Below are positions 4,183-56,900 of a stretch of 64,000 bases of DNA, piece after piece. A program made the translations under genes and the position numbers. The DNA is from Thermobifida halotolerans (GTDB lineage: Bacteria; Actinomycetota; Actinomycetes; Streptosporangiales; Streptosporangiaceae): assembly GCF_003574835.2 (NCBI RefSeq), contig NZ_CP063196.1, forward strand, positions 1,178,001 through 1,242,000, written 5' to 3'. The notes below the pieces were generated by a model. That model saw nothing but the letters and a program-made list of their open reading frames with translations, had not been told where the DNA came from and made no database searches. Position 1 is the stretch's first letter, and every line of letters begins with the position of its first letter.

Positions 4183-5418
4183 TCACGACTCCTTTCCGCG
4201 GCCGCGCCGCAGGAACCAGCGGATGAGGAGAGCCAGCAGCACGCCCTCGGCGGTCAGTGCCAGCACGGCCCACAGCGGCCCCCACAGTTCGGCGAGGGTC
4301 AGGTACCAGACGGCGATGACGCCCACGGCCGCCGGGCCCAGGACCGCCGTGGCCAGCAGGGCGTAGCCGGAGTGGACGATCCGGGCCCGCACCGGGTAGT
4401 CGCCCGCGCGGCCCCGCAGCAGGTGCCCGACGAACCGCAGCGTGTGCCGCTGCAGGTGCAGCGTGGACAGTGCGTGGGCCAGCATGTGGTAGCCGTCCAG
4501 CCCCAGCACGGGCACCAGGTTGACCAGCGTGGCGACCGTGCCGAAGAACAGCACCGCCCCGGCCAGCCCGTGCCACCAGCCCGACTGCGGCCCCCACAGC
4601 CACAGCGCCGCCACGGGCAGCAGCGCCACGAGGTTGACGTAGACCCCCGCGAAGGAGGTCGCCACCCGCTGCCACGTCTTCGGAAACAGCACCTGGTCGT
4701 CGGTCTTGCAGTACAGCGCCACCAGGGGCAGCCGCCACATCAGCCCGATCTCGCCGGGCCGCCCCCCGTAGCGGTGGCAGGCCACCCCGTGCCCGTACTC
4801 GTGCGCGCCCATCATCGCCCACACGACCAGCAGCGACACCACGGCGACACTCCACGGGGCGGGCGCGCCCGTGAACGCCGCGTACAGCTCCCGCCACGAC
4901 AGCAGCGCGTAGCCGCAGGCCAGCGTCCCGAGCAGGGTGAGCGGGGCCGCCACGGGAAGCGCGAACAGCCAGCCGACCGCCCGCGCCACGGCGGGCACCG
5001 CCTCGGCCGCGCCGCGCAGCGGCAGCCGCCACCGCAGCGGCGACCTGCCCTCCGCGCGGCGGGCCGCCTCGGCCGAGGCCCGCACCCGGTCCAGCAGTTC
5101 GGGCGCGGCCCCCTCCAGCAGGCCGCGCGCCTCCAGCATCCCCAGCAGGGAGCGCCAGTGCTCGGCGGCCAGGCGGCGGCCGAAGCGGGCCGCGTACTCG
5201 GCGCCGATCGCGGACAGCGGCGCGCTTCCGTCCAGCCGCGCGACCAGGAACGCCTCGCGTTCGCCCACCCGCAGGAACGCCCCGGTGTCGCGGTCGCCGA
5301 CGACGTGGATCCGCCGCGGCCCCTCCCACAGGGGCGGGCCCACCCGCACGCTCGGACGCAGCCGGGGACGGGTCCGGTCGAGCCACCCGTCCTCGACCGC
5401 GGCCTCGGCGGCGGTCAC
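4183..5418 (-). CDS. PqqD-like/M50-type membrane zinc metalloprotease
   Basis: A 411-residue protein. The N-terminal 130 residues look like a PqqD/RiPP-recognition winged helix (segment FLVARLDGSAPLSAI then WRSLLGMLEARGLLEG). A multi-pass membrane domain follows, carrying the zinc motif HEYGH (in AMMGAHEYGHGVACHRYGG) and the second site-2-protease motif NLVPVLGLDGYH, so both metal-ligand motifs of peptidase family M50 are present. The GTG start overlaps the upstream stop as GTGA. In this operon it is the only protease, so it is the best candidate for removing the leader peptide or processing the peptide at the membrane. That assignment is inferred from context. Confidence 0.82.
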   Translation of the reverse strand: MTAAEAAVEDGWLDRTRPRLRPSVRVGPPLWEGPRRIHVVGDRDTGAFLRVGEREAFLVARLDGSAPLSAIGAEYAARFGRRLAAEHWRSLLGMLEARGLLEGAAPELLDRVRASAEAARRAEGRSPLRWRLPLRGAAEAVPAVARAVGWLFALPVAAPLTLLGTLACGYALLSWRELYAAFTGAPAPWSVAVVSLLVVWAMMGAHEYGHGVACHRYGGRPGEIGLMWRLPLVALYCKTDDQVLFPKTWQRVATSFAGVYVNLVALLPVAALWLWGPQSGWWHGLAGAVLFFGTVATLVNLVPVLGLDGYHMLAHALSTLHLQRHTLRFVGHLLRGRAGDYPVRARIVHSGYALLATAVLGPAAVGVIAVWYLTLAELWGPLWAVLALTAEGVLLALLIRWFLRRGRGKES

Positions 5419-6440
5419 GCCGCCTCCGCCGGGACGCGTTCGGCGAGCGCCCGCTCGACCAGGTAGGACAGGTACACCTCGTCCAGGATGGCCGCGCCCA
5501 GCCGGTTGTTGGTCATGTGGATGTAGGAGCTGAGCAGCACGGCGGCCAGGTCCTCGGGCGCGTCGACGGGCGCGGCGGCCGAGCCGCGCCGGCTGAACTC
5601 CAGCTCCCCGCGGGCCGCGGCCCCGGTCACCTTCTGGTGCAGCTCGGCGCAGTGGTCCAGCCACCGCCGCTCGATCCGGGAGCGCGTCGCCTCACCGCCC
5701 GGCGCGGTGACGGCGCGGATGCGGTCGACGCGGGCCAGCAGCGAGTCGCGGGTGCGCGCGAAGCTCTTGTCGAAGGACGCCAGGTGCTCGTCGGAGGGCC
5801 GCTCGTAGGAGGACTCCCAGAAGGCGCGGTAGCGCCGGAAGAACCGCAGCACCGCCGCGTCGTCGCGCAGGAAGGAGTAGGCGCTCATCAGCGACAACTG
5901 GGTCGCCAGGCCCAGCAGCACCGGCCGCACGTGGGTGTTGGAGAACGCCAGCAGCTCGGCCACCACGTCGCTGGAGTGCTCGAAGTGCCACTCGGCGATG
6001 TCCATGCCCACCGGACCGCCGTAACGCCCCAGCTCCTGCTCGTAGGGCCGCTGCTCGACGGTGTTGTTGGGACGAAGCGGGATGGCCCCGGCCGCCCCGT
6101 ACTCGGCCTGCCACCGCTCCTCGCCGTACTCGGCGACGAACATCTGCCGGTACAGCTCGTCCAGGCCCTCGGAGTCGGTGTCGTACAGGGCGGGGCGCCT
6201 GCGCAGGAAGTCCTCCAGGGCGCGCCGGGCGCGCTCGGCGACCTCCTCGCGCAGCGACGCCTCGCGCGGCTTGAACCGGACCCGCAGGTGCGGTCCCTCC
6301 AGCCAGTACTTGATGAAGAACCAGCCGCTGATCCTGCCCTCGGCGCGCAGTTCGGCGACCAGGGGGCGGACGGCCTCGACCACGATCGGGTTGGCGTCGC
6401 TGGCGTAGAAGACGTGGAATGCCACCCACTCATCGGACAT
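5415..6440 (-). CDS. LanB-type elimination domain protein (SpaB_C, thiopeptide-type)
   Basis: A 341-residue stand-alone SpaB_C/TIGR03891-type protein. Characteristic segments are the N-terminal WVAFHVFYASDANPIVV, the basic FIKYWLEGPHLRVRFKP and the C-terminal HMTNNRLGA. In split LanB systems (TbtC in thiomuracin, GodG in goadsporin) such proteins remove glutamate from glutamylated Ser/Thr to leave dehydroalanine or dehydrobutyrine; close relatives (TbtD, TclM) instead form the pyridine ring. The ATG at 6440 has GGAAGGGA upstream and overlaps the LanB gene by 11 bp. Only one such protein is present, so I assign elimination rather than cycloaddition. Confidence 0.85.
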   Translation of the reverse strand: MSDEWVAFHVFYASDANPIVVEAVRPLVAELRAEGRISGWFFIKYWLEGPHLRVRFKPREASLREEVAERARRALEDFLRRRPALYDTDSEGLDELYRQMFVAEYGEERWQAEYGAAGAIPLRPNNTVEQRPYEQELGRYGGPVGMDIAEWHFEHSSDVVAELLAFSNTHVRPVLLGLATQLSLMSAYSFLRDDAAVLRFFRRYRAFWESSYERPSDEHLASFDKSFARTRDSLLARVDRIRAVTAPGGEATRSRIERRWLDHCAELHQKVTGAAARGELEFSRRGSAAAPVDAPEDLAAVLLSSYIHMTNNRLGAAILDEVYLSYLVERALAERVPAEAA

Positions 6441-9204
6441 GGCGGTCCCTTCCGGTGTCATAGAGCTCGATCAGCAGTTCGCTGACGTGGGGACGGTCGT
6501 GCTCGTCGCGCAGCCACAGCCCGTCGGTGTCGGGGAACGCCTCGGTGAGCACGATCCGGGAGGAGGCGGCCAGCACCATCTGCTCCAGCAGTTGGATCGA
6601 GTGCCAGCTGGCGAAGTCCACCGGCAGCGGCTTGCGGCCCGCCGAACGCCGGGTGCCGCCCTCCTCCTGGACCGGCTCCTCCGACTCGGCGGCGCCCCCG
6701 CCCGCCGCGGCGTTGTCGATCTGGGCGAAGACCCGCTCGGGCAGGCCCAGGTCGCGCCGCCAGCGGCGCACCCGCAGGAAGAAGTCGGCGTCGCCGCGTC
6801 CGGGATCGCGCCGGGGGAAGTCCGCGGCGTGCATCTTCCACATCCGGCGCTGCAGCACCAGGTCGCCCAGGACCAGGCGCGGGTAGGCGGTCACCCCGCG
6901 TTCGGGCACGGGGATCCCGGTCCCGGCCCACAGGTCCGGCCGCGCCATGCCGCTGGGGGAGAAGCACAGCAGCGCCTGCTGGACCTCCGGCAGCGCCATC
7001 GGCATGAGATAGCCCAGGTAGACGGGGACGACCTCGCGGCCCAGCCGACGCGAGACGAGCCGCACCCGGTCGGCGTCGGCATCGTGGACCAGGAAGAGGT
7101 CGCTGAGCGGGATCTGCTCGTCGGCGGGGCGGTCGCTGTGGTCGCCGGGGCAGACGATCTCGTAGTCGGTGACCGCAGGGTGGATGTTCAGGTTGGTCGT
7201 CTCGTAGCCGCCGTGCAGCTCGGCCAGCACCGCCCCGTCGGGGGCGTAGCCGCGCAGGACGCGCCGCACCAGGTCGGGCGCGCCCTGGTCGGCGAGGCTG
7301 TGGGCGAACCGGGAGAACATCAGCGTCAGCCCGGCGTAGGCCTGGTTGACCACGGCCCGCCCGGGCTCCCCGTCGGCCCCGGCGCTCACCTGCACCAGGA
7401 ACGACCAGGGCTGCGCGGTGCTCGTCGACGGCGGCAGCAGGGCACGCACCAGGTCGGTGAAGTCGTCGCCCAGCCGGATCTCCTCGGTGCCGGGCCGCGC
7501 CCTGGCCAGCAGTTCGCCCACGTGGGTGCCGATGGCCTGGCGGGCCCGGTCCAGCGCCGCGATCTCCGCCGACCTGAACCAGTTCTCCTGGGGCACGTGG
7601 TTGTTGCCCTCGTCGAAGGCGCGGCGGCGCATCGACCGCTGCAGGTAGGGGTCGAAGAAGTCGCGCTGGAACTCGTGGCAGAACCGGGTCACGTCGTCGC
7701 AGCGGCCGCCCCGGCCGTAGCGGGCGACGAAGAACCCCTTGGCGGTCAGCCGCCGCGGCAGGTTCAGGTCGAACGCCGCGAGCAGGTCGGCCAGGGAGGC
7801 CAGGTCGCCCAGCAGGGCGCGTTCGAAGGCGGCGCGGTCGGCGTCGGCTCCCCGGAAGACGGTGTCCTCGTAGAGGAGGGTGCGCGGCGTCAGCGCCGGG
7901 TCGGCGTCCACCGCCGCGAAGCACTCCGCCACGTGTGCGCGGACGCGCGCCAGCACCCGCGCGCGCTCGCGGGCGGGGGTGCGGGAGTAGGCCGCCACCT
8001 GCTCGCGCGCCCGCTCCAGGGCCCGGGCGGCCTCGCGCAGCGGCTCCGGTTCCTGGGCGGCCAGCGCGGCGGCGAAGGACGCGGCGGGATCGTCGGAGCG
8101 CAGGTCCACCTGCAGGTCGGGCACGATCAGAAAACCCAGCCGCAGCAGGTGGCCCAGCAGCCGGTCGGTTCCGGCCGTGTCGGGCTCGCCGTGGGCGGCG
8201 GCCAGAGCGGTGCTGAGTTCGCGCAGCGTGGGGGAGACGTCGCGCGTCAGCCCGGCCACGTCGCGCAGCACCGGACCGCCGGGCAGGAAGAACAGGTCCT
8301 CGTGGACGGTGTCGAGCGCCACGACCGCGTCGGGGTCGGCGCCGGCCGTGGTGCGGCGGCGCACGTAGCGCATCCGCTCCCCGTCGGTGTCGGCGCCCGG
8401 GGCCAGGGTCACGCGGAAGTCCGACCGCAGCCGCGGGTCGGCCTGGACGACCGCGGCCAGACGGGCGAGGACGGCGACGTTGAGCCGGACGGTGGCGCGC
8501 TTGCGCAGGTCCGCCGGGCGCGGCAGCGCGCCGGGGGCGCCGTCGCGGAAGCGGCCCAGGCCCACGGAGGTCAGGGTGCTGAACGGGCTGGTCTTCAGCG
8601 ACGCCCGGTACAGCAGCTCCAGCAGTGTGCGCTCCAGGTGGCGCGCGGACTTGTCGAACCTGCGGTCGGGGTCCAGGTAGCGGTCCATGGTGCGCTCCAG
8701 GACCTGCGACTGCAGCAGGACGGCGCTGCGCAGCTCGTCGTCGGCCAGCTCCGCGCGGGCGTGCTCGCGGGCCCGGGCGGTGTCCTCGGCCAGCGCCCGG
8801 GGGCCGCGGTCGAGGGCCGACTCCAGCGTGTCGAGGGCCGCCAGCCAGGCGTCCAGCAGCTCACGGACCGCGGCGTCCAGGCCCGGTTCGGCGCGGCCCA
8901 GCGTCGCCGGGCGGGGCCGCCGCGCGTTGAACACGTCCCGGCGCAGGTTGATCAGCGCGACCCGGTGGTCGCCGGGGGCCCGGGCGATCGCCTCCTCCAG
9001 CGCCCCGCGCAGCCGCTCGCCCTGTCGGTCGCGGTGCTCCTCCGCCGCCATGACCTCCGCCGCCCACGCGCAGGCCAGGGGGGAGCGCAGCGCCGCCACC
9101 GTGTCGGCGGGCCGTCCCGCCGCACGGATCAGGAAGCCCTCGCCCAGCCGCCAGCGGGCGAGCGCGCCGGGAGGCGTCTCGGGCGGGTGGAGCAGGTCGG
9201 TCAT
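6430..9204 (-). CDS. LanB-type tRNA-dependent glutamylation protein (lantibiotic dehydratase N-terminal)
   Basis: A 924-residue protein matching the large subunit of split class I lanthipeptide dehydratases. It begins near FLIRAAGRPADTVAALRSPL and carries the family segment LYRASLKTSPFSTLTSVGLGRF at about residue 200. It lacks the C-terminal elimination domain, which the next gene supplies. Members use glutamyl-tRNA to glutamylate Ser and Thr side chains of the precursor. Its ATG overlaps the dehydrogenase stop as ATGA. The gene predicts that the mature product has dehydroamino acids besides azoles, as in goadsporin or thiopeptides. Confidence 0.9.
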   Translation of the reverse strand: MTDLLHPPETPPGALARWRLGEGFLIRAAGRPADTVAALRSPLACAWAAEVMAAEEHRDRQGERLRGALEEAIARAPGDHRVALINLRRDVFNARRPRPATLGRAEPGLDAAVRELLDAWLAALDTLESALDRGPRALAEDTARAREHARAELADDELRSAVLLQSQVLERTMDRYLDPDRRFDKSARHLERTLLELLYRASLKTSPFSTLTSVGLGRFRDGAPGALPRPADLRKRATVRLNVAVLARLAAVVQADPRLRSDFRVTLAPGADTDGERMRYVRRRTTAGADPDAVVALDTVHEDLFFLPGGPVLRDVAGLTRDVSPTLRELSTALAAAHGEPDTAGTDRLLGHLLRLGFLIVPDLQVDLRSDDPAASFAAALAAQEPEPLREAARALERAREQVAAYSRTPARERARVLARVRAHVAECFAAVDADPALTPRTLLYEDTVFRGADADRAAFERALLGDLASLADLLAAFDLNLPRRLTAKGFFVARYGRGGRCDDVTRFCHEFQRDFFDPYLQRSMRRRAFDEGNNHVPQENWFRSAEIAALDRARQAIGTHVGELLARARPGTEEIRLGDDFTDLVRALLPPSTSTAQPWSFLVQVSAGADGEPGRAVVNQAYAGLTLMFSRFAHSLADQGAPDLVRRVLRGYAPDGAVLAELHGGYETTNLNIHPAVTDYEIVCPGDHSDRPADEQIPLSDLFLVHDADADRVRLVSRRLGREVVPVYLGYLMPMALPEVQQALLCFSPSGMARPDLWAGTGIPVPERGVTAYPRLVLGDLVLQRRMWKMHAADFPRRDPGRGDADFFLRVRRWRRDLGLPERVFAQIDNAAAGGGAAESEEPVQEEGGTRRSAGRKPLPVDFASWHSIQLLEQMVLAASSRIVLTEAFPDTDGLWLRDEHDRPHVSELLIELYDTGRDRHVR

Positions 9205-10871
9205 CGCTGTGCCCCTTCCGAGGTCGGGCGCGGACGGTACAGGTCGTGGTCGTAGCCGGTGCGGGGGGCGCGCCTGCGGCCCAGCAGCAGAAAGAGCATG
9301 CTGCGCTCGTCGGTTCCGGAGATCCCCAGCATCGCGTCGAGGGCGGGGTTGTCGAGGCCGAGGACCGCGCCGATGCCCAGGTCGGCTTCTGCGGCGGCGA
9401 GGTAGGCGCTCTGGGCGGCCTGGCCCACCTCGATGCCCAGCATCCGGTAGCCGCGCGCGCCGTAGGCGCCCACCAGGGGCTCCAGGCGGCCGCACACGGC
9501 GACCACGGCGGCGCACTGGCGCAGGTCGTAGTTGGTGAGCGCGTAGTGGCGCTGCAGGTCGGAGAAGTCCACGGCGGGGCCGGGCAGCAGCCGGTGGGAG
9601 TCGCCGTCGTAGCAGTAGGCGCGCCGTTCCAGCCCGTCCACGGCGTTGGCGAGCAGCCGCAGCCGCACCCACGGCCGCCGGTCCGGCCCGGGGGCCACGT
9701 CGGTGGGGCAGCGGCCGATCCGCTCGGCGGCCCGCAGGATCCGGCCCAGCTCGGCCGGGTGCAGCGCGGGGCGCGCCGACAGCACGCCGAAACCCGAGCG
9801 GCGGGTCCGCAGCGCCCGCTCCAGGCCGCCGCCGTCCGCGGCGTCCTCGGCCGGGGGCAGCGGCACGGAGGGGCCGTCGCCGGTCGGCGGCCCGGCGACG
9901 CAGTCGGCCCCCGCCTCCGGAGCGGGCCGGGGCGCGTCGCCGACCAGGGCGGCCAGGTGCACCTGCTCGACCAGTTCGAAGGAGCGCACCCGTCTGGACC
10001 GCTCCCACACCCGCGGCAGCGGGGCGGCGGGTCCGGGCAGCAGGCGGGGGGAGGGGCCGCCGGTCCGCTCTCCGAGGGGAAGCACCAGGAACGGGGCCTC
10101 GGTGCGGCCGTCAACGCCCACCGCGGCGCTCACCGGGGCCTCGTCGAACCACAGGACGGGCCGCGGCGTGTGCCCGAAGGCGGCGAGCACCGTCCGCCAC
10201 GACCCCAGCAGGGCGCCGGTGTCCTGGGTGACCACGTGGTAGGCGAACGAGTGGTACTTGAAGGAGTTCTTCCAGAAGCGCAGTGTCGCCACCAGGTACA
10301 GGGGCGCGCGCACGCCGCTGGCCTCCTCCAGCGCCGCCGTCCGGTCCTGGACCGACAGCCGGTCGAGCGCGTGGTGGGCGGTGTCGTGGTGGTAGACGCC
10401 GCACGGCAGCACCGTGTCGGGACCGGCGACCAGGTAGCTCTCCACCGGGTACATGCCGCCGCCCGACGCGGTGGGCCGCGACCACACGGCCTGGCCGACG
10501 TGCAGCCGCCGCGTGCTGTCGTCGTTCCAGTCCGGGGAGGCGCGGCGACCGGTGACCGCGTAGCAGGCCAGGGCGGCGGCCAGCTCCTCCGGCGTCGGCG
10601 TCGCGGCGGGGTTCCGCGCGGCGCGCGCCCGTTCCACGGAGGCGAGCACGCCGCCGGGGACGGGGGCGGAGAAGGGGGCGGGCAACGGCAGCTTGGGGGC
10701 GTCCCGGTAGAAGGTGTGGCGGAAGGGCTGGTCGTCCCAGTCGACCCGGAAACCCGGGGGAGGCAGGGGGACGCGCTGGCGTTCGAACGCCCGGCGGGCG
10801 TAGTCGAGCGCCACGGCCCCGTCGTCCGGGATCCGGCCGGGACCGTCGTGGGTGCTGGCGGGTGTGCTCAA
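9201..10871 (-). CDS. SagB-type FMN azoline dehydrogenase, double-domain
   Basis: A 556-residue protein with two nitroreductase-like halves. The first contains the SagB signature RPTASGGGMYPVESYL at about residue 140; the second resumes near RTRRSGFGVLSARPALHPAELGRIL (about residue 345). SagB/McbC-type enzymes oxidise azolines to aromatic thiazoles and oxazoles with FMN. I chose the TTG at 10871 because GAGGAG lies 6 nt upstream; a TTG at 10877 touches the Shine-Dalgarno sequence. The gene follows the YcaO gene by 49 bp. Its presence predicts aromatic azoles in the product. Confidence 0.88.
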   Translation of the reverse strand: MSTPASTHDGPGRIPDDGAVALDYARRAFERQRVPLPPPGFRVDWDDQPFRHTFYRDAPKLPLPAPFSAPVPGGVLASVERARAARNPAATPTPEELAAALACYAVTGRRASPDWNDDSTRRLHVGQAVWSRPTASGGGMYPVESYLVAGPDTVLPCGVYHHDTAHHALDRLSVQDRTAALEEASGVRAPLYLVATLRFWKNSFKYHSFAYHVVTQDTGALLGSWRTVLAAFGHTPRPVLWFDEAPVSAAVGVDGRTEAPFLVLPLGERTGGPSPRLLPGPAAPLPRVWERSRRVRSFELVEQVHLAALVGDAPRPAPEAGADCVAGPPTGDGPSVPLPPAEDAADGGGLERALRTRRSGFGVLSARPALHPAELGRILRAAERIGRCPTDVAPGPDRRPWVRLRLLANAVDGLERRAYCYDGDSHRLLPGPAVDFSDLQRHYALTNYDLRQCAAVVAVCGRLEPLVGAYGARGYRMLGIEVGQAAQSAYLAAAEADLGIGAVLGLDNPALDAMLGISGTDERSMLFLLLGRRRAPRTGYDHDLYRPRPTSEGAQR

Positions 10872-10920
10872 ACTCAACTCCTCGGTGAGGGACGTCTGCC
10901 GGGGCCGCGGCCTGGACCGG

Positions 10921-12834
10921 TCACGGGAAGGGGTGGGGGACGCGGTGCAGTTCGTCGGCGCGCAGCGGTCGGGGCATCAGCCCGGCGCGGTGGGGGGCCC
11001 AGCGGGTGCGGGGCAGGTGCAGCGCGCGCTGCCGCTCCCAGCCGAAGTCGATGGGGACCAGGCCGGGCACGATCACCGCGACCGTGTGCAGACCGAGAAG
11101 GCGCTGCTCGGGGGTGGTCTGGTCGACGACGACGGTGTCCATGCCCCGGTCGGCGAGCATGGCGACGATCTCCCGCACGGGCTCGCGCAGGTCGCGGTGG
11201 GCCCCGCGGCCCGCCGTCCAGTCGGCGAACACCTCGTCCAGGGGGCGCCGCTCGTCCTGGCGCAGCCAGTGGTCGGCCAGCGGAGCCATCCGGGGCAGGC
11301 CGAACAGCAGCGCGTGGTGGGACAGCTCGGTCACCAGCCGGTAGTCGTCGGCCATGCGCTCGACGCGCTCCAGGGCGGCCTCCACCCGCTCGGGGAAGCC
11401 GGAGATGTAGGACGCGGTCTCGCACACGGCCGCGCGTACCGCGTCGGCCGGGTCCAGCGACGCGCCGCCCGCGAAGCACAGCGTGCCCAGCCCGTCGTCG
11501 CGGCGCACCGCCACCGCCGCGACCGCCGGGACCGGAAGGTCGGTGCGGATGTCGAAGCAGCGCAGGTCGTAGCCGAAGAGGTCCACGTGCGCGCGCATCT
11601 GCCGCACCAGGGCGGAGTCGACGGTGTCCAGGTCGATCTCGGTGGGGGTCAGGCCGCCGTACCAGCTGACGAGGAAGGCGTCGCGCTCCAGCAGTTCGAG
11701 CAGGCCGTGCAGAACCGCCTCGGTCACCGAGCCGCCGGAGGCGCACCCGTTGGAGCACTCCTGGACGGTGTTGCGGTGGTCGGTACGGTGGTCCAGGTAG
11801 TAGGCGATCTGCTCGGGCACGAGCAGCGGGCGCTCGTCCCGCAGCGAGTAGCCCCACACCCACGGCACCTCGGGCTGCTCCGACCAGGGCACGTAGTGCC
11901 CGGTGTGGCCCCGGTAGAACTCCTCGGAGTACAGGCCGCACTCGGTCAGGTCCAGGTGGGGCGCGTCCAGGTCGGCGGCCCGGGCGCGCCGGGCCACGCG
12001 GACGCGCCGCGGCCGTTGCCCGGCGTCGCGCTCCAGCCCCTCCAGGGCGGCCAGCAGTTCGCTGCGGGCGTAGCTCTCGGCGTGCCCGCTCCACCACATC
12101 TCGTGCAGCGCGTACTTGCTGCGGACGTGCAGCCGTCCGCTGACCGGCGCGGTCGCCGTCGCCTGGTAGGCGCGCACCGCCGGGCCGCCGAGCATGCCGC
12201 AGACCGGGTTGGCCAGCGCCTCCACCGGCAGGTCCAGGTCCTCGGGGCGGCGCGTGCGGGTGGCGCCGGGCGCCACGGGGGCCGGGGCCAGGGTGATGCG
12301 CGCGCCCTCGGCGGTGTCGTCGACCGGCCGGGCGCACCGCTCGCAGGCCGAGTCGCGGATCAGGCCGAAGCGGTTGACGGCCGAGGTGAGCGTGTCGATC
12401 TCCCACACCGGCGCGGTGCGCGGGTCGCCGCCGCGCAGCGCCGTCTCGACCAGGGACGCGGCGATCGCCGCCGCGTGGCTGCCCGGAACGGCCTGGACGG
12501 GGGCCAGGACGCCGCGCGGCTCCTCCAGCGCGGCGCGCTCCGCGGTGGGACGGCACACGGTCCACCTGCGGTCCAGGCAGCGGGGGCAGGGCCCCGGAGC
12601 GCCGGGGGTGGCGGCGACGATGACGCTCGACCCGTACAGGCGGACGCTCACCCCGACCCGCTCGTCCCCGCCGCCCAGAGGGACCACCTCGCCGCCGTCC
12701 GCGCCGGGGACTCCCAGAACTGCCACGTCGATCGCCCCGGGGACGCCGCGCAGGCGGTCGGCGATCATCCGGCCGAACCGCGCCGCGGGACTCGTCGGCC
12801 CGGCTCCGGAGGCCGGGGCCACCATCGTCGTCAT
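10921..12834 (-). CDS. YcaO-domain azoline-forming cyclodehydratase
   Basis: A 637-residue TOMM cyclodehydratase. The N-terminal region has two CxxC pairs (CPRCLDRR and CERCARPVD) that probably bind zinc. The YcaO catalytic part covers about residues 220-637, with typical segments RSKYALHEMWWSGHAESYARSE and ECSNGCASGGSVTEAVLHGLLELLERD. The C-terminus ends PHPFP, close to the PxPxP tail that YcaO cyclodehydratases need for activity. The reaction is ATP-dependent cyclisation of Cys, Ser or Thr to azolines. The ATG at 12834 has GAGAGGTG upstream. It works with the ocin-ThiF-like protein of the same operon. Confidence 0.92.
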   Translation of the reverse strand: MTTMVAPASGAGPTSPAARFGRMIADRLRGVPGAIDVAVLGVPGADGGEVVPLGGGDERVGVSVRLYGSSVIVAATPGAPGPCPRCLDRRWTVCRPTAERAALEEPRGVLAPVQAVPGSHAAAIAASLVETALRGGDPRTAPVWEIDTLTSAVNRFGLIRDSACERCARPVDDTAEGARITLAPAPVAPGATRTRRPEDLDLPVEALANPVCGMLGGPAVRAYQATATAPVSGRLHVRSKYALHEMWWSGHAESYARSELLAALEGLERDAGQRPRRVRVARRARAADLDAPHLDLTECGLYSEEFYRGHTGHYVPWSEQPEVPWVWGYSLRDERPLLVPEQIAYYLDHRTDHRNTVQECSNGCASGGSVTEAVLHGLLELLERDAFLVSWYGGLTPTEIDLDTVDSALVRQMRAHVDLFGYDLRCFDIRTDLPVPAVAAVAVRRDDGLGTLCFAGGASLDPADAVRAAVCETASYISGFPERVEAALERVERMADDYRLVTELSHHALLFGLPRMAPLADHWLRQDERRPLDEVFADWTAGRGAHRDLREPVREIVAMLADRGMDTVVVDQTTPEQRLLGLHTVAVIVPGLVPIDFGWERQRALHLPRTRWAPHRAGLMPRPLRADELHRVPHPFP

Positions 12835-12912: not shown

Positions 12913-13098
12913 TCAGCCGCAGCTGGAGGTGCTGGTGCTGGTGGAGCAGCAGCTGGAGGTGCTGCAGGAGCAGCAGCTGGAGCAGGAGCAGCTGGAGCTG
13001 CAGGCGGCCAACTGGTCGGACAGGTCGGCGATCTCGTCGACCTCGAAGGTGACGGCCTCGAGCTCCATGAGCTCCATGCCGAGGGACTGGGTGGACAT
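12913..13098 (-). CDS. Azole-peptide precursor A (Cys/Ser/Thr core)
   Basis: A 61-residue precursor. The acidic leader (residues 1-32) includes MELMELEAVTFEVDEIADL, the usual hydrophobic/acidic recognition stretch of thiopeptide and goadsporin-type precursors. The last 29 residues contain 9 Cys, 15 Ser, 4 Thr and a final Gly, so 28 of 29 can be cyclised or dehydrated. AAGGAGGA lies upstream of the ATG. It is one of three paralogues in tandem and the closest to the YcaO gene. The leader/core cleavage site is not certain; the change to pure Cys/Ser follows LAA. Confidence 0.92.
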   Translation of the reverse strand: MSTQSLGMELMELEAVTFEVDEIADLSDQLAACSSSCSCSSCCSCSTSSCCSTSTSTSSCG

Positions 13099-13705
13099 GG
13101 GTCCTCCTTGTTCGGTTCGGAAAACGGGTGGGATCGGGACGCGGCCGCCGGGTGCGGACGCGCCCCCACGGGTGCGCGGGCCGCCGCCCCGAAGGACCGG
13201 AGCGGCGCCGCCCGGCGTCCCGTGGTCATGGGGCCGTTCAGCCGCAGCTGGAGGTGCTGGTGCTGGTGGAGCAGCAGCTGGAGGTGCTGCAGGAGCAGCA
13301 GCTGGAGCAGGAGCAGCTGGAGCTGCACCAGGCGGCCGCCTCCTGGCCGAGGTCGGCGATGTCCTCGACCTCGAAGGTGACGGCCTCCAGCTCCATGAGC
13401 TCCAGTCCCAGAGACGGGCTGGACATGCGGCTCTTCCTTTCGTGACGATGGAGCGGACCGGCTCCGTGACGCGACCGCGCCACGGAGCCGGAAACCCCGG
13501 CCGGGAGCGTCAGGGACCTCGGCGCCAGGGACCGCCCTGACGTCCGAAGACTCCCGGCCGGGCCTCCGCCGCGGGGGTCACTCCCCGCGGCGGAGGGCGT
13601 TCGGCGGGTCAGCCGCCGCCGCAGCCGGTGCTGGTGCTGGTGGAGCAGCAGCTGGAGGTGCTGCAGGAGCAGCAGCTGGAGCAGGAGCAGCTGGAGCTGC
13701 ACCAG
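12916..13705. repeat. Three near-identical precursor-core DNA repeats
   Basis: An 87-bp stretch at 12916-13002 is repeated exactly at 13241-13327; about 79 bp of it (13627-13705) recurs in the third precursor gene. The copies are in direct orientation and lie within coding sequence. The spacers between them (13099-13237 and 13427-13608) hold only ribosome binding sites and no other gene that I can support. Confidence 0.9.
13238..13426 (-). CDS. Azole-peptide precursor B (Cys/Ser/Thr core)
   Basis: A 62-residue paralogue of precursor A. The leader MSSPSLGLELMELEAVTFEVEDIADLG differs at several positions, while the 29-residue C-terminal core is identical to A apart from a preceding Trp (AAW before the first Cys). 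GGAAGAG precedes the ATG at 13426. The last 87 nt before the stop match precursor A exactly at DNA level, so the duplication is recent or maintained by gene conversion. Two different leaders carrying the same core imply the same mature product from both. Confidence 0.92.
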   Translation of the reverse strand: MSSPSLGLELMELEAVTFEVEDIADLGQEAAAWCSSSCSCSSCCSCSTSSCCSTSTSTSSCG

Positions 13706-13791
13706 CCGGCCAGGTCACCGCCGAGGTCGGAGATGTCCTCGATCTCGAAGGTGGTCGTCTCCAGGGCCAGGAGTTCCTCTTGGAGGTTCAC
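13609..13791 (-). CDS. Azole-peptide precursor C (Cys/Ser/Thr core, Gly-rich end)
   Basis: A 60-residue paralogue and the first precursor translated. Its leader is the most divergent (MNLQEELLALETTTFEIEDISDLGG). The first 25 core residues match A and B, but the end is GCGGG instead of SSCG. A very strong ribosome binding site (GAGGAGGTGAAA) precedes the ATG at 13791. The upstream Trp (AGW) is shared with B. The changed tail would give a different C-terminus in the mature peptide, so the operon probably makes at least two related products. Confidence 0.92.
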   Translation of the reverse strand: MNLQEELLALETTTFEIEDISDLGGDLAGWCSSSCSCSSCCSCSTSSCCSTSTSTGCGGG

Positions 13792-13868: not shown

Positions 13869-15869
13869 TCAGGAGCCGGCGGTCCGGTAGAGCAGGACGC
13901 GGGCCACATGCGTCACCCCGGCCAGGTCGGGCGGGGTGAGATCGAGGAGCGCGGCGCGGCGGCCGTCCGCGGCCAGGCGGGCCAGCACCTGCTCGGTGCC
14001 GCCCGCGGTCCGCAGTGGGGACGGGTCGTCCAGCGTCGCGGCGGGAACGCCGGTGAGGTCGGAGGCGCCGCCTGGGGCCTCGCCGGGCTCGGCCGCCACC
14101 TGGCGGTGGCCCGCCAGTTCCCGCAGCGCGGTCTCGGCGGCCTCGGCCCAGGTCGCGCCGTGCCGGGCCAGAGTCCGGCGCGCGGTGCGCACCACGGCGA
14201 CCGGGACCGCTCCGGGGACCGCCAGCAGTTCGGGGGCGCCGCCGGGGCCGTCCAGTTCCGCGGCGAACATGGCCAGGCGGGCGCGTTCGGCGCCGTCGAG
14301 GACCTTGTCGAGCAGGTCGGGCCCGACGGCCAGCAGCGGGGCCCGCCCGCGCGCCGCCAGGGCCAGCACCCGGGCCGCGGCGGCGTCGCGCAGCGCCCGC
14401 TCCGCCGCCTCGCGGGCCGTCGGCGCGGCGGCGAGCCCGGTCAGCGCGGGCTCGAAGCAGGCGGCGTCGCGGTCCCAGGGACCGGCGAGCACGGCGGCAC
14501 CCTCCACGGCCAGCGCCGTCCCGTCGGCCATGTCGCGCGCCGCGACCGGTCGGCTCTCGGGGAGCGCCGTCCCCAGCCAGGTCTCCAGCAGGCGCGCCTC
14601 GACGGACCGCGCGTCCCCGGCGGCCCCCGGCAGCAGGGCGCAGCGTCGATGTACGCCCAGCGCGTACTCGGCGGACGCCGCCTCCAGCGCCGTCAGACGC
14701 GCCCGCATCACCGTGTCGGAGGCGAAGGCCGCGATCGGCTCCGGTCGCACGGCCGGGGCGTGCAGCACCGACACCTTCACCGGGATCTGCGGCAGGGCGT
14801 CGTCGTCGAAGCGGCCCATGATGCCGGTGGTCTCGGCGACCACGCCCTCGAAGCGGGTGTAGGCGTCCTCCACGTCGGTCGGGTCCTCCACCGCCGTGGC
14901 GTCGCGCGGCGTCGGCGCAGCGTCTCCCGCGGGGTGGGCCACCACCGGTTCGCCGCGCGCGGTCAGGAACCGGGAGTCGACGACGACCGCGCGATCGGCG
15001 ACGTCGGAGGCGAGCACGCCGCTCAGGGACTTGAAGACCTCGAAGCCCATGATCGCCACGGCCATCGACGCCGCGGCCCCGGGCAGCGGGGGCAGGGCGG
15101 GGGCGGCGACGCCCGCGCCGACGGCCTGCCACATCCCCAGGACCTCGGGGACCGCGTTGTCGCTCAGGCGCAGCAGCAGCGAGCACACGTCCACGCCCCC
15201 GTCGGGCCCCTGCCACGGCCCGACGACCAGTCGGTGGCCCACGCGCAGCAGCGGCAGGACCGCCGCCCCCGCGGTCCGGGCCGCCCGGGCGTGTTCGAGC
15301 AGGCGGGGCTGCGGCCCGTCGACGGCCAGCAGGCACACCAGGTCCGCTCCGGACGCGTCGACGCCGTCGGCGAAGGAGCGCACCGCGACCTCGCCCGCCG
15401 CGCCCACGCCGTTGGCCGCCAGGGCGTCGGCGAGTTCGGAGCCGCCCCGCGCGGTGTCGGAGACGACGACCACACGCGCCTCGGCCAGCCGCAGGAAGCC
15501 GCGCCCGTCGTCGCCGTGGTGCTCCAGCAGTGAGACCTGGGCCTCGAAGCGTTCCCGCAGCTCCTCGCCGACCACGCCCCCCGGCTCGGGCGCGTCGAAG
15601 ACCACGCCGCGCGCGGCGAGCCGCGACAGCAGGGAGCGGACCGCGTCGACGTGCGCCTCGGGCAGACCGGCGGTGATCTCCTCGAGCGTCGTCGATCCGT
15701 TCAGGTGGGGGGACAGGGCCGACAGGTAGCGGTAGGCGCCCGCGCCGCGGACGAGGAAACTGTCTCCGGCGCCGCGCACGAAGACCCCTTCGGGGGTCTC
15801 CAGGACCACGGTGTCCTGGCGGAGGCGGGGACGGTGGGGCAGCGGTGTGGACAACGGTCCTCCAGACAT
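13869..15869 (-). CDS. Ocin-ThiF/E1-like cyclodehydratase partner (TOMM)
   Basis: A 666-residue protein. Residues about 1-90 look like a PqqD/RRE winged helix (FLVRGAGAYRYLSALSPHLNGSTTLEEI), which in such proteins binds the leader peptide. A Rossmann-like E1/ThiF segment follows (ARVVVVSDTARGGSELADALAANGVG, about residue 130). The rest matches the bacteriocin-cyclodehydratase type seen beside YcaO genes. Its role is to recognise the leader and present it to the YcaO enzyme. The ATG at 15869 has no clear Shine-Dalgarno sequence. It is the last gene before the precursors. Confidence 0.82.
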   Translation of the reverse strand: MSGGPLSTPLPHRPRLRQDTVVLETPEGVFVRGAGDSFLVRGAGAYRYLSALSPHLNGSTTLEEITAGLPEAHVDAVRSLLSRLAARGVVFDAPEPGGVVGEELRERFEAQVSLLEHHGDDGRGFLRLAEARVVVVSDTARGGSELADALAANGVGAAGEVAVRSFADGVDASGADLVCLLAVDGPQPRLLEHARAARTAGAAVLPLLRVGHRLVVGPWQGPDGGVDVCSLLLRLSDNAVPEVLGMWQAVGAGVAAPALPPLPGAAASMAVAIMGFEVFKSLSGVLASDVADRAVVVDSRFLTARGEPVVAHPAGDAAPTPRDATAVEDPTDVEDAYTRFEGVVAETTGIMGRFDDDALPQIPVKVSVLHAPAVRPEPIAAFASDTVMRARLTALEAASAEYALGVHRRCALLPGAAGDARSVEARLLETWLGTALPESRPVAARDMADGTALAVEGAAVLAGPWDRDAACFEPALTGLAAAPTAREAAERALRDAAAARVLALAARGRAPLLAVGPDLLDKVLDGAERARLAMFAAELDGPGGAPELLAVPGAVPVAVVRTARRTLARHGATWAEAAETALRELAGHRQVAAEPGEAPGGASDLTGVPAATLDDPSPLRTAGGTEQVLARLAADGRRAALLDLTPPDLAGVTHVARVLLYRTAGS

Positions 15870-15895: not shown

Positions 15896-16726
15896 TCAGG
15901 AGATGTCCCTGCGGCGGATCAGCCAGGCGGCCACGGCGACCGAGAGCGCGGTATAGGCGAGCAGCACGGCGACCGCGGCGGGCGCGTCCAGGTGGTCCAC
16001 CACACCGGGGGTGCCGCCCTCCTCCAGGGTGGGCGCGCCCAGGGCCGCCACCAGCGAGCCGCTGGCCGTGCCCAGCAGCACCGAGCGCACCGGCTCCAGC
16101 GGGCCGAACATCGACGCCAGGCCGGAGACGGCGCTCTCCAGACCGAGGGTCCACAGCAGGCCGACCGCCAGGGCGACGCTGGTGCCGCGGAAGGCCACCG
16201 CCAGGGCGGCTCCCACGCTCATCCACGCCACCGAGATCAGGGCCGCGCCGCCCAGGGACGCCAGCAGGTCGACCGCGCCCGGCCACCGCACGGGCCGGTC
16301 GGTGACGAGGGCGACGGCGACCGAGGCCGCGACCGCGGCGAGCAGCGCGGCCGCGGCGACGAGGGCGGCGGCGATCACGCCCGCGGTGAACTTGGCCGCC
16401 ACCACCTGTATGCGGTCGGGCCCCTGGGACAGGCGCGCGGTCCAGGTGTTCCAGCGGTACTCCGACCCGGTCAGCAGCACGCCGAGGATGAGCATCATCG
16501 CGCCGCCGAAGAGCGGGTAGCTGCTCACCGACGTGCTCGCCACCGCCTCGGGCAGCAGCGCCAGGAGGATCTGGTCGCGGTCCTGCCCGGCGTCCAGGTT
16601 GGCGTAGACGATGTAGGGGACGAGGAAGGCGAAGGACACGACCATCGCGACCCAGGCCGCGCCCACCGCGTAGGGGGCTCCGCGGTGGCGGAGCAGCAGC
16701 AGTTCGGAGTTGAGCGCGGGGATCAC
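15896..16726 (-). CDS. ABC transporter permease of the azole-peptide operon
   Basis: A 276-residue membrane protein with about six hydrophobic segments, of the ABC-2/NatB-like type, starting IPALNSELLLLRHRGAPYAVG. The GTG start at 16726 has AGGAGG upstream and overlaps the ATPase stop as GTGA. It pairs with that ATPase. Being in the same operon as the precursors, the pair is likely to export the mature peptide or give self-protection; which of these is not shown by the sequence. Confidence 0.85.
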   Translation of the reverse strand: MIPALNSELLLLRHRGAPYAVGAAWVAMVVSFAFLVPYIVYANLDAGQDRDQILLALLPEAVASTSVSSYPLFGGAMMLILGVLLTGSEYRWNTWTARLSQGPDRIQVVAAKFTAGVIAAALVAAAALLAAVAASVAVALVTDRPVRWPGAVDLLASLGGAALISVAWMSVGAALAVAFRGTSVALAVGLLWTLGLESAVSGLASMFGPLEPVRSVLLGTASGSLVAALGAPTLEEGGTPGVVDHLDAPAAVAVLLAYTALSVAVAAWLIRRRDIS

Positions 16727-17679
16727 GAACGTTCCTCCTGGGTTTCGGTCAGTCTGAAGAAGGCGTCCTCCAGCGACTGGCGCTCCGCGCGGACCTCGTG
16801 GACGTCGGCTCCGGCCTCGACGAGGGCGCGGACGATGCCGGGGACCTCGTCGGGGTCGGCGCGCGTGAGCCAGCGGCCCGGCTCCTCGTGGACCGGTTCG
16901 CCCGTTCCCGCCGCCGCGGCGAGCACCCGGCCCACCGTCTCGTCCGGGGTGGCGTGCAGGTGGAGGGAGACGTCGGGGGTGCGGATGCGGTCCATGGAGT
17001 CCTCGGCGACGACCGTGCCGCGGTTGAGGACGACGACGCGGTCGCACACCTGCTCGACCTCGCCGAGCATGTGGGAGGAGAACAGCACGGTGCGCCCCGA
17101 GGAGCCCAGGTCGCGCACCAGTTGGCGCATCCACACCACGCCCTCCGGGTCGAGTCCGTTGGTGGGCTCGTCCAGGATGAGCAGGCGGGGGTCGCCCAGC
17201 ATCGCGGCGGCCACCCCCAGCCGCTGGCGCATGCCCAGTGAGTAGCCGCCGAAGCGGTCGCCCGCCCGGTCGGCCAGGTCCACCAGTCCCAGGACGCGGT
17301 CGACCTCGCTGTCGGGAAGGCCGCGGGCGCGGGCCAGCACGCGCAGGTTGACGCGGCCGCTCAGGCCGGGGACGAAGGCGGGGGCCTCGATGAGCGCGCC
17401 GATGTCGCGCAGGGCGCGCCGGTCCCCGGGGGCGTGCCCGAGGACGCGAACCGTTCCGCTGTCGGGGCGGACCAGGCCCAGCAGGATGCGCAGGAGCGTG
17501 GTCTTTCCGGCGCCGTTGGGGCCGAGCACCCCGTAGACCTGTCCGGGGGAGACGCTCAGGGCGACGCCGTCGAGCGCGCGCAGTCCGCCGAAGGACTTGC
17601 CGAGGCCGCTGATGTGCGCGGCGAGGGCGTCCGGCTGGGTGCCCGGCGGGGGCGGCGCCGTCTCGGTTTCGATGGTCAC
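16723..17679 (-). CDS. ABC transporter ATP-binding protein of the azole-peptide operon
   Basis: A 318-residue ABC ATPase with Walker A GPNGAGKTT (about residue 54), the signature YSLGMRQRLGVA, and Walker B LLILDEPTNGLDPEG. The C-terminal extension ends DAFFRLTETQEE, as in drug or peptide exporters of the CcmA/BcrA group. It is the first gene of the long leftward operon, with a GTG start and GAGGAA about 11 nt upstream. An upstream ATG at 17690 is out of frame and soon meets a stop. It couples to the permease through a GTGA overlap. Confidence 0.92.
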   Translation of the reverse strand: MTIETETAPPPPGTQPDALAAHISGLGKSFGGLRALDGVALSVSPGQVYGVLGPNGAGKTTLLRILLGLVRPDSGTVRVLGHAPGDRRALRDIGALIEAPAFVPGLSGRVNLRVLARARGLPDSEVDRVLGLVDLADRAGDRFGGYSLGMRQRLGVAAAMLGDPRLLILDEPTNGLDPEGVVWMRQLVRDLGSSGRTVLFSSHMLGEVEQVCDRVVVLNRGTVVAEDSMDRIRTPDVSLHLHATPDETVGRVLAAAAGTGEPVHEEPGRWLTRADPDEVPGIVRALVEAGADVHEVRAERQSLEDAFFRLTETQEERS

Positions 17680-53809: not shown

Positions 53810-53899
53810 GTGATCCTCCGAACAATCCGGGTTTCTGCTCGTGATTGCCGCATCACGGTCTCGACGGGACCAATGCGGCGATGCTATACATAGTGCCGC

Positions 53900-53920
53900 A
53901 AATGAAAACTATTTTCATTT
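53900..53920. promoter_or_regulatory. Fur/Zur-type palindrome in the ligase/NRPS divergent promoter
   Basis: AAATGAAAA (53900-53908) and TTTTCATTT (53912-53920) are perfect 9-bp arms around CTA. The centre (TGAAAA-3 nt-TTTTCA) matches the actinobacterial Zur consensus better than the classical DtxR/IdeR iron box. It lies 47 bp before the NRPS start and 91 bp before the ligase start, well placed to control both. Confidence 0.72.
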
Positions 53921-53966
53921 TCGATCGCTGTGGGCGATCCCATCCCTGACAGAAGGGCGGTAGGAC

Positions 53967-56900
53967 GTGCGGACACCGGTCGAGACGGTCCGGCGGCGGG
54001 TCGCGGAGATCCTCGGAACCACCGACTTCACCGACAGCGACGACCTCTTCGACCACGGCCTGGACTCCCTGGGACTGATCCGCCTGGTGGGCACCTGGCG
54101 GGAGCGGGGAGCCGAGGTGACCTTCGAGGAACTGGCCGCCGAGCCCACCGTCGCGCACTGGGCGCGACTGCTGGAACACGCCGCCCCGGCCCCGCCCCGG
54201 ACCGCGGAGACGGTCGTGCCGGACGCCGACGCGCCGTTCCCGCTCGCCACGATGCAGCACGCCTACTGGATCGGCCGCCAGGACGGACAGCCGCTCGGCG
54301 GGGTCGCCGCGCACTTCTACACCGAGTTCGACGGCCGGGAAACGGACCCCGAACGGCTCGACGCGGCCGTCGCGGCCGTCACCGAACGCCACCCCATGCT
54401 GCGCGCCCGCTTCCTCGACGACGGCCGCCAACGCGTCGAACCGCCCGGCCGCCACCGCCCGGTCACCGTGCACGACCTGCGCGGCCTGCCCCCCGCCGAC
54501 GTCGAACGCCGCCTGGCCGAACTGCGCGACCAGGCCACCCACCGGCGCATGGACGTCGCCTCCGGCCACGTTCTGGACGTGGCGCTGTCCCTGCTGCCCG
54601 GCGGGGCCACCCGGCTGCACGTCGACCTGGACATGATCGTCGCCGACGCGCTCAGCCTGCGGGTGCTGTTGGAGGACCTGACCGCCGCCTACGACGGCCG
54701 CGCCCTGCCCCCGCTGGAGTACGGCTTCGCCCGCTACCTCGCCGAGCGGGCCCGGCGCGACACCCCGGCCCGGGACCGCGCGCGCAGGTGGTGGCGCCGA
54801 CGGCTCGCCGACCTGCCCCCGCCGCCGGAGCTGCCCACCGTCATCGACGCGACCCGCCCCACCCCGGCCGGATCCCCCCACGCGCGCTCCACGCGGCTGC
54901 ACCACTGGATCGACCCCGAGCGCTCCCGGAGGCTCGCGGAACGGGCCCGCGCCCACGGCCTGACCCCCGCGGCCGCGCTGGCGACCGCGTTCGCCGAGGT
55001 CCTGGGCGCGTGGAGCGCCTCTCCCCGGTTCCTGCTCAACCTCCCCCTGTTCGACCGCGCCCCGCTGCATCCCGATGTCGACCGGGTCCTCGGCGACTTC
55101 AGCGGCTCCGTCCTGGTCGCCGCCGACGTCACCGAGCGCCTGCCCTTCGCGCAGCGGGCCCGCCGCACCCAGGACGAGCTGCGCCGGGCCATCGACCACG
55201 GGGCCTACAGCGGCGTCGAGGTACTGCGCGACCTCGCCCGCGCGGCGGGCGGCGCCGTGCTCGCCCCGGTCGTCTACACCAGCGCGATCGGACTGGGCCC
55301 CCTGTTCACCGACACCGTCCAGCGGCGCTTCGGCCGCCCGTCGTGGATCATCTCCCAGGGGCCGCAGGTGTGGCTGGACGCGCAGGTGACCGAGCTCGAC
55401 GGTGGACTGCTGCTCAACTGGGACGCGCGCGAGCGGGTGTTCGCCCCCGGCTTCCTCGGCGCCGCATTCGCCGCCTACCGAGACCTGGTCGACGCGCTGG
55501 TCGACGACCCCGACGCCTGGCAGACCCCCTACCGTCCCGACCTGCCCGAGGTGCGGCGGCGCGCGGCGGCCCCGGACGCCGACCTCCCCGAGGCGCGCAC
55601 CCTGCACCGCGCGTTCTTCGAGCGGGCGGGCAGCGCTCCCGGGCGCACCGCCCTGGTCGCCCCCGACGGGACCGGGACCGGCTACGGCGAGCTGGCCGAG
55701 CGCGCGCTGCGCGTCGCCGGAGCGCTCGCTCCGCTCACCACCCCCGGCGACACCGTCGCGGTGACGCTGCCGCGAGGCCCCGAGCAGGTCGCGGCGGTGC
55801 TCGGCGTGCTCGCCGCGGGCTGCGCCTACCTGCCGGTGGGCGCCGACCAGCCGCCCGCCCGGCGCGCCCGCGTCCTCTCCCGGGGCTCGGCCGCGCTCGT
55901 GGTGACCGACGCCGCGGGCGCGGCCGCGGCCGACCCGGACGTCCCCGTCCTCGACCTGGCCGAGGCGCTGGCCGCCGACCCCCTGCCGCGCCCGCGCGAC
56001 GTCCCCCCGGACGCGCCCGCCTACCTGCTGTTCACCTCCGGCTCCACCGGCGAGCCCAAGGGGGTGCAGGTGCCGCACCGGGCGGCCGCCCACACCGTCG
56101 ACGTCCTCAACGCCCGGCTGGGCATGACCGACGCCGACCGCACGCTCGCCCTCGCCGAGGCCGACTTCGACATGTCGGTCTACGACCTGTTCGCGCCGCT
56201 GTCGGCGGGCGGCGCCGCGGTCCTCGTCGCCGACGACGCGCGCCGCGACGCCCCGCGCTGGGCGCGCGGCGCGGTCCGCGGCGGTGTGACCGTCCTCAAC
56301 TGCGTGCCCACCTTCCTCGACATGCTGCTCACCGCGGCGGAGTCGGGGACGGCGGAGCTGCCGCCGCTGCGGGCGGTCCTGCTCGGCGGCGAACGGATCG
56401 GCGCGGACCTGCCCGCCCGGCTGCGCGCGTTCGCCCCCGGCTGCCGGTTCCTCGCGCTGGGCGGCATGACCGAGGCCGCGATCCACTCCACGGTCCAGGA
56501 GGTCGACCGGGCCGACCCCGCCTGGCACTCGGTGCCGTGGGGCCGGCCCCTGCCCGGTGTGCGCTGCCGGGTCGTCGACTCCCAGGAACGCGACCGCCCC
56601 GACTGGGTGCCCGGCGAGCTGTGGGTGGGCGGCGCGGGACTGGCCGACGGCTACCGGGGGGACCCCGCCGCGACCGCCGACCGGTTCGTCGAGCGGGACG
56701 GTCAGCGCTGGTACCGCACCGGCGACCTGCTGCGCTATCTGCCCGACGGCACCCTGGACTTCCTGGGCCGCGTCGACCGCCAGGTGAAGGTGCGCGGCGT
56801 GCGCGTCGAACTCGGCGAGATCGAGGCCGCCCTGCGCGCCCACCCCGAGGTCGCGGCCGCGGTGGCCCTGGTCGAGGACACGCCCGCCCCCCGCCTGGCC

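Follow-up and report, generated by a model that had tools for sequence, protein, structure and literature searches.

Gene organization of the precursor locus

The window, by which we mean the whole 64-kb stretch of DNA analysed, carries a RiPP gene cluster whose genes all lie on the minus strand, in the listed order ABC transporter ATPase, permease, probable F protein, precursors C, B and A, YcaO, SagB, LanB N-terminal protein (LanB-N), LanB C-terminal protein (LanB-C) and M50 protease (Table 1). An earlier note on this DNA had described three RiPP precursors with cores nearly all Cys, Ser and Thr (C/S/T) beside YcaO and LanB genes, and this was borne out: three minus-strand reading frames end in the cores described, and the YcaO and LanB genes lie beside them. 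The locus is real and intact.

Table 1 Genes of the cluster and their best supporting matches
Feature	Position	Strand	Details
M50 metalloprotease, candidate leader peptidase	4183-5664	minus	motif HEYGH; PF02163 36.2 bits, cut-off 27.2
LanB C-terminal protein, read as glutamate-elimination type	5415-6461	minus	PF14028 160.2 bits
LanB N-terminal (tRNA-Glu glutamylation) protein	6430-9204	minus	PF04738 133.4 bits
SagB-type azoline dehydrogenase	9201-10877	minus	TIGR03605 124.1 bits, cut-off 78.4
Fused YcaO cyclodehydratase with N-terminal leader-binding part	10921-12834	minus	637 aa; C-terminus PHPFP; PF02624
Precursor A	12913-13098	minus	61 aa, ATG start; type III core, 29 residues; NF033400 12.7 bits, below cut-off 30
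Precursor B	13238-13426	minus	62 aa from ATG; type III core; NF033400 33.6 bits, above cut-off 30
Precursor C	13609-13791	minus	60 aa, GTG start; type II core, 30 residues, GCGGG end; NF033400 22.5 bits, below cut-off
Probable F protein (ocin-ThiF-like), candidate leader-binding partner	13869-15869	minus	start uncertain; TIGR03693 33.3 bits; syntenic homologues
ABC transporter permease	15896-16726	minus	PF12679 and PF12730, both below cut-off; syntenic
ABC transporter ATPase	16723-17679	minus	PF00005 98.5 bits

In each precursor, a leader of about 30 residues is followed by the core. The cores of A and B are identical and consist of 9 Cys, 15 Ser, 4 Thr and 1 Gly, and that of C has its first 25 residues in common with them before its different end. 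This composition supports the earlier suggestion that almost every core position could become an azole or a dehydroamino acid. The ORF list gives precursor B a longer frame, from a GTG upstream of the ATG used in Table 1, and each of the three genes is preceded by a purine-rich stretch, a possible ribosome-binding site. A six-frame ORF scan of the window for at least 15 C/S/T and at least 4 Cys in the last 25 residues returned A, B and C only, and the genome held three matches to precursor A at E ≤ 0.001, all at this locus. The core DNA of A and B was identical at 87 of 87 positions and that of C shared 84 of 90 positions with each, while the leader DNA of the three genes diverged more (59-79 identical per 99-100 aligned columns), which points to a recent event of duplication or gene conversion among the window cores.

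The cyclodehydratase exceeded the cut-offs of TIGR03604 (304.7 bits, cut-off 219.25) and TIGR03882 (58.9 bits, cut-off 36.9); it was the one YcaO protein among the ORFs scanned at the locus and the one match in the genome at E ≤ 1e-40. The ATG of LanB-N at 9204 overlaps the SagB stop, and in the PDB this protein matched 6ec7 (119.4 bits), which we take to be TbtB, and 9jhq, "Goadsporin biosynthetic protein" (44.9 bits). The M50 protein reached 129.4 bits with the subfamily model NF041824, below its cut-off of 300. For the probable F protein, the TIGR03693 score lies far from the cut-off of 561.9 and no Pfam match was found, and its position is syntenic in relatives. When 20 ORFs were scanned against Pfam, there was no LanC cyclase domain, no LanM-type (DUF4135) dehydratase, and neither of two goadsporin features, an N-acetyltransferase and a peptidase-containing ABC transporter; none of the scanned ORFs was recognisable as an immunity gene. 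As LanM was not seen among these ORFs, a dehydrazole reading of the cluster was rejected.

Two other frames were recorded on the way. A PF14028 match besides that of LanB-C lies elsewhere in this genome, outside the window (G000:C1:2189033-2189776), in a frame of 1097 aa that may encode a full-length LanB of a different RiPP cluster, and codon composition singled out an open frame of 3365 aa on the window's minus strand (53853-63950).

Distribution of the precursor family

A profile of A, B and C had matches in 17 of 345 genomes of the order, own genome included, and in 4 of 396 genomes drawn evenly from the phylum, again with the own genome included and the other three weak (E about 1e-5 to 7e-7). 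Within the genus, a related YcaO at E ≤ 1e-40 was present in one of four genomes, the window's own. When the YcaO alignment was compared with a one-per-species genome collection, 110 relatives were obtained, and the best 80 of the 110 were taken, giving 78 loci; at least two species appear twice among them, and 12 of the 15 regions of an earlier retrieved set overlap them. Their genera include Nocardiopsis, Kribbella, Jiangella, Sphaerisporangium, Actinomadura, Micromonospora, Saccharothrix, Modestobacter, Streptomyces and others.

A motif scan found precursors in 52 of these 78 loci, 144 in all, although some may be false (a third one in L087 and short ones in L060). The number of distinct cores was 80 with the window included, and the exact core TSSSCSCSSCCSCSTSSCCSTSTSTSSCG was found 16 times. 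Of the 144 cores, 80 were at least 90% C/S/T, with the core start set at the longest C/S/T/G(/A) run, a rule that raises C/S/T fractions by construction. By the same motif scan, 26 of the 78 loci had no such precursor, and some of the contigs end early; remoter clusters of this kind may use other precursors. The Acrocarpospora macrocephala locus (L060, 5605-9780) has eight precursors, or six by a stricter rule, with diversified cores that include hydrophobic residues. Three loci of the same family (L043, L047 and L049, corresponding to L096, L088 and L086 among the 78) have a second YcaO on the opposite strand and shorter, different cores.

Conservation of the cores

For each of the 52 loci, the best core was compared with that of the window with no identity filter. 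Where YcaO was 66-71% identical to the window's (10 loci), the core was 97-100% identical and the leader had a median of 73%. At 47-53% YcaO identity (23 loci), the core median was still 93% (range 63-100%, at least 90% in 15 of 23) against a leader median of 52%, and at 40-46% (19 loci) the core median was 50% and no core reached 90%. The near-frozen core is restricted to one branch and is not a property of the whole family. Core types I, II and III, taken at 80% identity, covered 33 of the 52 loci and 77 of the 144 precursors; all three occurred together in 19 loci, in the order III-I-II in 11 and I-II-III in 8 (two with one extra copy). The window has types II, III and III.

In 20 type-III rows at 47-53% YcaO identity, 1-3 of 26-29 residues differed and 3-8 codons differed silently. 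Same-type cores in other genera had 3-10 silent codon changes and 0-4 residue changes relative to the window, in a comparison restricted to rows with 80% identity or more to a single core type. These silent differences point to selection on the peptide and argue against recent transfer. The codon family of Ser (AGY or TCN) was nearly fixed across genera at some core positions and mixed at others (precursors of L050-L127): the two Ser before the Cys-Cys pair were TCN in 91/97 and AGY in 92/97, and the Ser that opens the anchor motif was mixed (46 TCN vs 51 AGY), the compared rows being related, so that conservation and codon counts are not independent.

Low-complexity DNA that is read as ORFs while no peptide is made could also be considered, since, Gly aside, every codon of the three window cores is TGC, AGC, TCC or ACC; in A and B the Gly codon is the last one. 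But same-type cores of relatives differ by the silent and residue changes given above, and the same kind of leader precedes them. A repeat or low-complexity artefact was rejected on the conservation of the cores across genera, and we consider it next to impossible.

LanB-C and the pyridine synthase

The best NCBIfam match of LanB-C was NF045556, the TbtD/PbtD pyridine synthase model, at about 105 bits vs a cut-off of 325. The match spans model positions 1-275 of 354 and is the sole one of its kind in the genome. In 394 genomes searched, ten genes in 8 genomes exceeded the cut-off, and every one of the ten adjoined a second, weaker match ending at model position 173-286. Judged by score and span, LanB-C matches the synthase model in the way these partner proteins beside the genes over the cut-off do. 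In the PDB, the profile of the LanB-C family had TbtD as best match (54 bits), then 5ehk (38 bits), presumably MibB, and NisB (27 bits).

We aligned 20 family rows with 14 synthases (10 over the model cut-off, 4 below it) and 14 elimination partners. R60, R62, E143, H315, N319 and E328, which from work on NisB and MibB we take to be glutamate-elimination residues, were kept in all 20 family rows and in 13 of the 14 elimination partners, and the fourteenth, with gaps at R60/R62, kept the others. In the synthase rows, E143, H315 and E328 were replaced in 14/14 and R62 in 13/14; R60 was retained by most and N319 by one. The 5ehk alignment shows the corresponding stretches GxHxRxR, YxPExxRYGG and HMTxNR. 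With profiles of the two classes, the window protein scored 212 bits for elimination partners and 107 bits for synthases. A tree of 47 rows (incomplete partner row omitted, two long rows flagged, midpoint root for drawing only) had three separate groups, with the synthases split off at 100/99; it places the LanB-C family outside the synthases, and by itself it does not join the family to the elimination partners.

Within the locus stretches scanned for the window and the 78 loci, 63 had one family-type protein, 1 had a family-type protein in two frames, 1 had an elimination-type protein and 14 had none, and a pyridine synthase was found in 0. Ten thiopeptide loci scanned alike gave both proteins, synthase and partner, in 10/10, which demonstrates that both can be detected but does not amount to an independent control, as these loci also supplied profile rows. 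A PF14028 search of 16 of the 17 precursor-positive genomes (G109 omitted) found one such protein near the precursors in 15, on their own contig though in some cases a few kilobases past the locus region; in G103 it was on a short contig of its own. A macrocyclase that is unlinked to the locus, or unrelated to these enzymes, may still exist.

These results bear on the chemistry of the product. A canonical thiopeptide, in which a [4+2] pyridine synthase joins two dehydroalanines to form a macrocycle, would agree with the NCBIfam name of the precursors ("thiazolylpeptide-type bacteriocin"), with the TbtD/PbtD match of LanB-C at 105 bits and the place of TbtD at the head of the PDB matches, and with the thiopeptide features of a probable F protein, a LanB-N near 6ec7 and a split LanB with both halves. 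However, the model match stops well before the end of the model, at 104 bits vs 325, as it does in the partners beside 10/10 genes over the cut-off, and the residues, the profile scores and the locus scan all point to the elimination type, with no second protein. With the pyridine synthase not found at the locus, we set the thiopeptide aside as very unlikely. A lanthipeptide-like product, with free Cys adding to dehydroalanines to give thioethers and few azoles, could be made with a split LanB from a core of 9 Cys among 15 Ser, but the operon includes YcaO and SagB, and LanC was found in 0 of 20 ORFs; such a product is quite improbable. The elimination residues are kept, the elimination score is double that for synthases and no synthase lies nearby, so a linear azole/dehydroalanine peptide is favoured over a thiopeptide.

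Residue order in the core and the predicted product

Residue-pair statistics were obtained from 33 thinned cores relative to shuffles within each core. Ser-Cys was enriched (z 7.1), more than Cys-Ser (z 2.5), and Ser-Thr (z 6.1) and Thr-Ser (z 8.3) were both enriched; Thr-Cys (z -5.7), Cys-Thr (z -3.9) and Ser-Ser (z -6.3) were depleted, and Cys-Cys-Cys was absent from the 69 cores examined. There was no Ser directly before 55 of 193 Cys and 54 of 165 Thr. Ser keeps Cys and Thr apart, and the bias to Ser in the preceding position is shown for Cys only; for Thr, the data give alternation with no direction, as Thr-Ser is enriched like Ser-Thr. The alternation pointed out in the earlier note is upheld in that Ser alternates non-randomly with Cys and Thr.

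The bias that stands out most clearly, Ser immediately ahead of Cys, would be expected if the azoles form before dehydration takes place. In goadsporin, azoles come first: dehydroalanine (Dha) at Ser4/Ser14 needs azoles at 5/15, and GodF left a peptide with no azoles unglutamylated (PMC5303826). TbtB of the thiomuracin pathway also acts only on azole-bearing peptide (PMC10676384). Past its first Cys, the A/B core can be resolved into S-C and S-T dyads that are separated by no more than two additional Ser or one additional Cys, and 23 of its 29 residues would be changed if all Cys and Thr became azoles and each preceding Ser became Dha. For a leader cut immediately ahead of the first Cys, the calculated [M+H]+ values are 2532.557 (9 thiazoles), 2424.494 (9 thiazoles and 6 Dha) and 2272.347 (13 azoles and 10 Dha) for A/B, and 2529.558 (9 thiazoles), 2439.505 (9 thiazoles and 5 Dha) and 2287.358 (13 azoles and 9 Dha) for C. 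The family is a test case for how LanB chooses among many equal-looking Ser residues.

In the proposed pathway, the F protein and YcaO would bind the leader at the motif around TFE[IV], and YcaO and SagB would convert Cys, perhaps also Thr, to thiazoles and methyloxazoles. The LanB halves would next glutamylate and eliminate Ser directly before an azole, the M50 protease would trim the leader, and the ABC transporter would export the product. Leader removal by the M50 protease is suggested by the position of its gene and by the M50 enzymes that serve other RiPPs, e.g. EpeP (PMC10885120). In this strain, A and B would give one product and C a second. Most likely, the products are linear azole peptides that contain dehydroalanine as well, made as goadsporin is, except that one LanB half is nearer to its counterpart in a thiopeptide pathway. 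The sequence basis of this reading is a set of intact precursors with a fused YcaO, SagB, a split LanB with an elimination-type C half, a probable F protein, the M50 protease and the ABC transporter, and no pyridine synthase nearby.

Possible role of the peptides

Azole RiPPs are often antibacterial. An antibacterial role for the linear azole peptide, rather than a role as signal or structural peptide, would fit this background, the presence of an ABC transporter, and the divergence of cores in remoter loci and in the Acrocarpospora locus. Against it, the ORF scans turned up no recognisable immunity gene, the cores nearer the window change little, and, according to a review, assays showed no antibacterial activity for spongiicolazolicins (PMC8838263). 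We regard this role as quite possible, though short of probable. Goadsporin at low dose promotes morphogenesis (PMC4603692).

In the window's branch, the cores change far less than the leaders and enzymes, and the conserved core types are encoded together; on these grounds a fixed target or a role in signalling would be somewhat likelier than an arms-race bacteriocin; this is the weakest step of our explanation, and it is countered by the cores that diverge in the 19 remoter loci and by the diversified L060 precursors with hydrophobic residues. Which role needs so exact a Cys/Ser/Thr sequence, when over a large branch the cores barely change while YcaO drops to about 50% identity? One answer, which we hold doubtful, would be that two or three azole/Dha ladders, modified at nearly every position (up to 23 of 29 residues), are produced side by side as a multi-peptide system and work in concert, with the exact sequence held by selection across a large actinobacterial branch, as an extracellular signal or structural peptide and not a weapon. 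Such ladders would possibly be among the most densely modified linear azole peptides.

Comparison with known systems

Precursors of this kind partly fall in named families. Precursor B passes NF033400, whereas A and C do not; among ten precursors of relatives (nine named loci), three pass TIGR03892 (cut-off 25), two of these three also pass NF033400, and two of the ten had no family match even at E ≤ 1. The family names suggest thiopeptide chemistry and a bacteriocin, yet the enzyme set, in which the pyridine synthase for such chemistry is absent, predicts a linear azole/dehydroalanine peptide with no thiopeptide macrocycle. Some thiopeptide cores, of the micrococcin type, are also almost all C/S/T. 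The claim of the earlier note that the core class is unprecedented is not supported: an NCBI model exists, a 2021 paper marks NF033400 precursors on a tree of actinobacterial YcaO proteins (PMC8442711), and C/S/T-dense coryneazolisin cores have been described (PMC4603692). In the open-access papers searched, we found no structurally characterised product with the cores studied here, which the earlier note had named as grounds for refutation. Because databases already name this kind, the novelty claimed in the earlier note is reduced; the branch with conserved cores and the residue order within the cores deserve further study.

Thiomuracin-type machinery, with gene roles taken partly from general background, resembles the present cluster in YcaO, SagB, the probable F protein, LanB-N and an elimination-type LanB-C, and differs in the pyridine synthase, which is missing here. 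The dehydrazoles (carnazolamide) resemble the predicted product in having azoles and Dha directly before azoles (PMC10676384), but they have a LanM-like dehydratase and nitrile-hydratase-like leaders, none of which was seen at the window locus. Coryneazolisins, which are predicted only, have C/S/T-dense cores (about 10 C/S/T, then Ile, then 5-7 C/S/T) beside lanthipeptide-like LanB dehydratases and are described with no cycloaddition enzyme (PMC4603692); they have a discrete YcaO protein in addition to a fused one, two in all against one here, and their core contains an Ile.

The enzyme set of goadsporin and the spongiicolazolicins includes a fused cyclodehydratase, an azoline dehydrogenase and a split LanB (PMC4603692, PMC10676384), all present here with no [4+2] enzyme nearby. 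Spongiicolazolicins have 29 and 28 residues (PMC8838263) vs cores of 29 and 30 here, a likeness by description and not by core sequence. Compared with both systems, the present cluster has no acetyltransferase among the ORFs scanned and a separate M50 protease in place of the peptidase-ABC protein, and it adds a probable F protein and several co-encoded precursors whose cores are free of hydrophobic residues.
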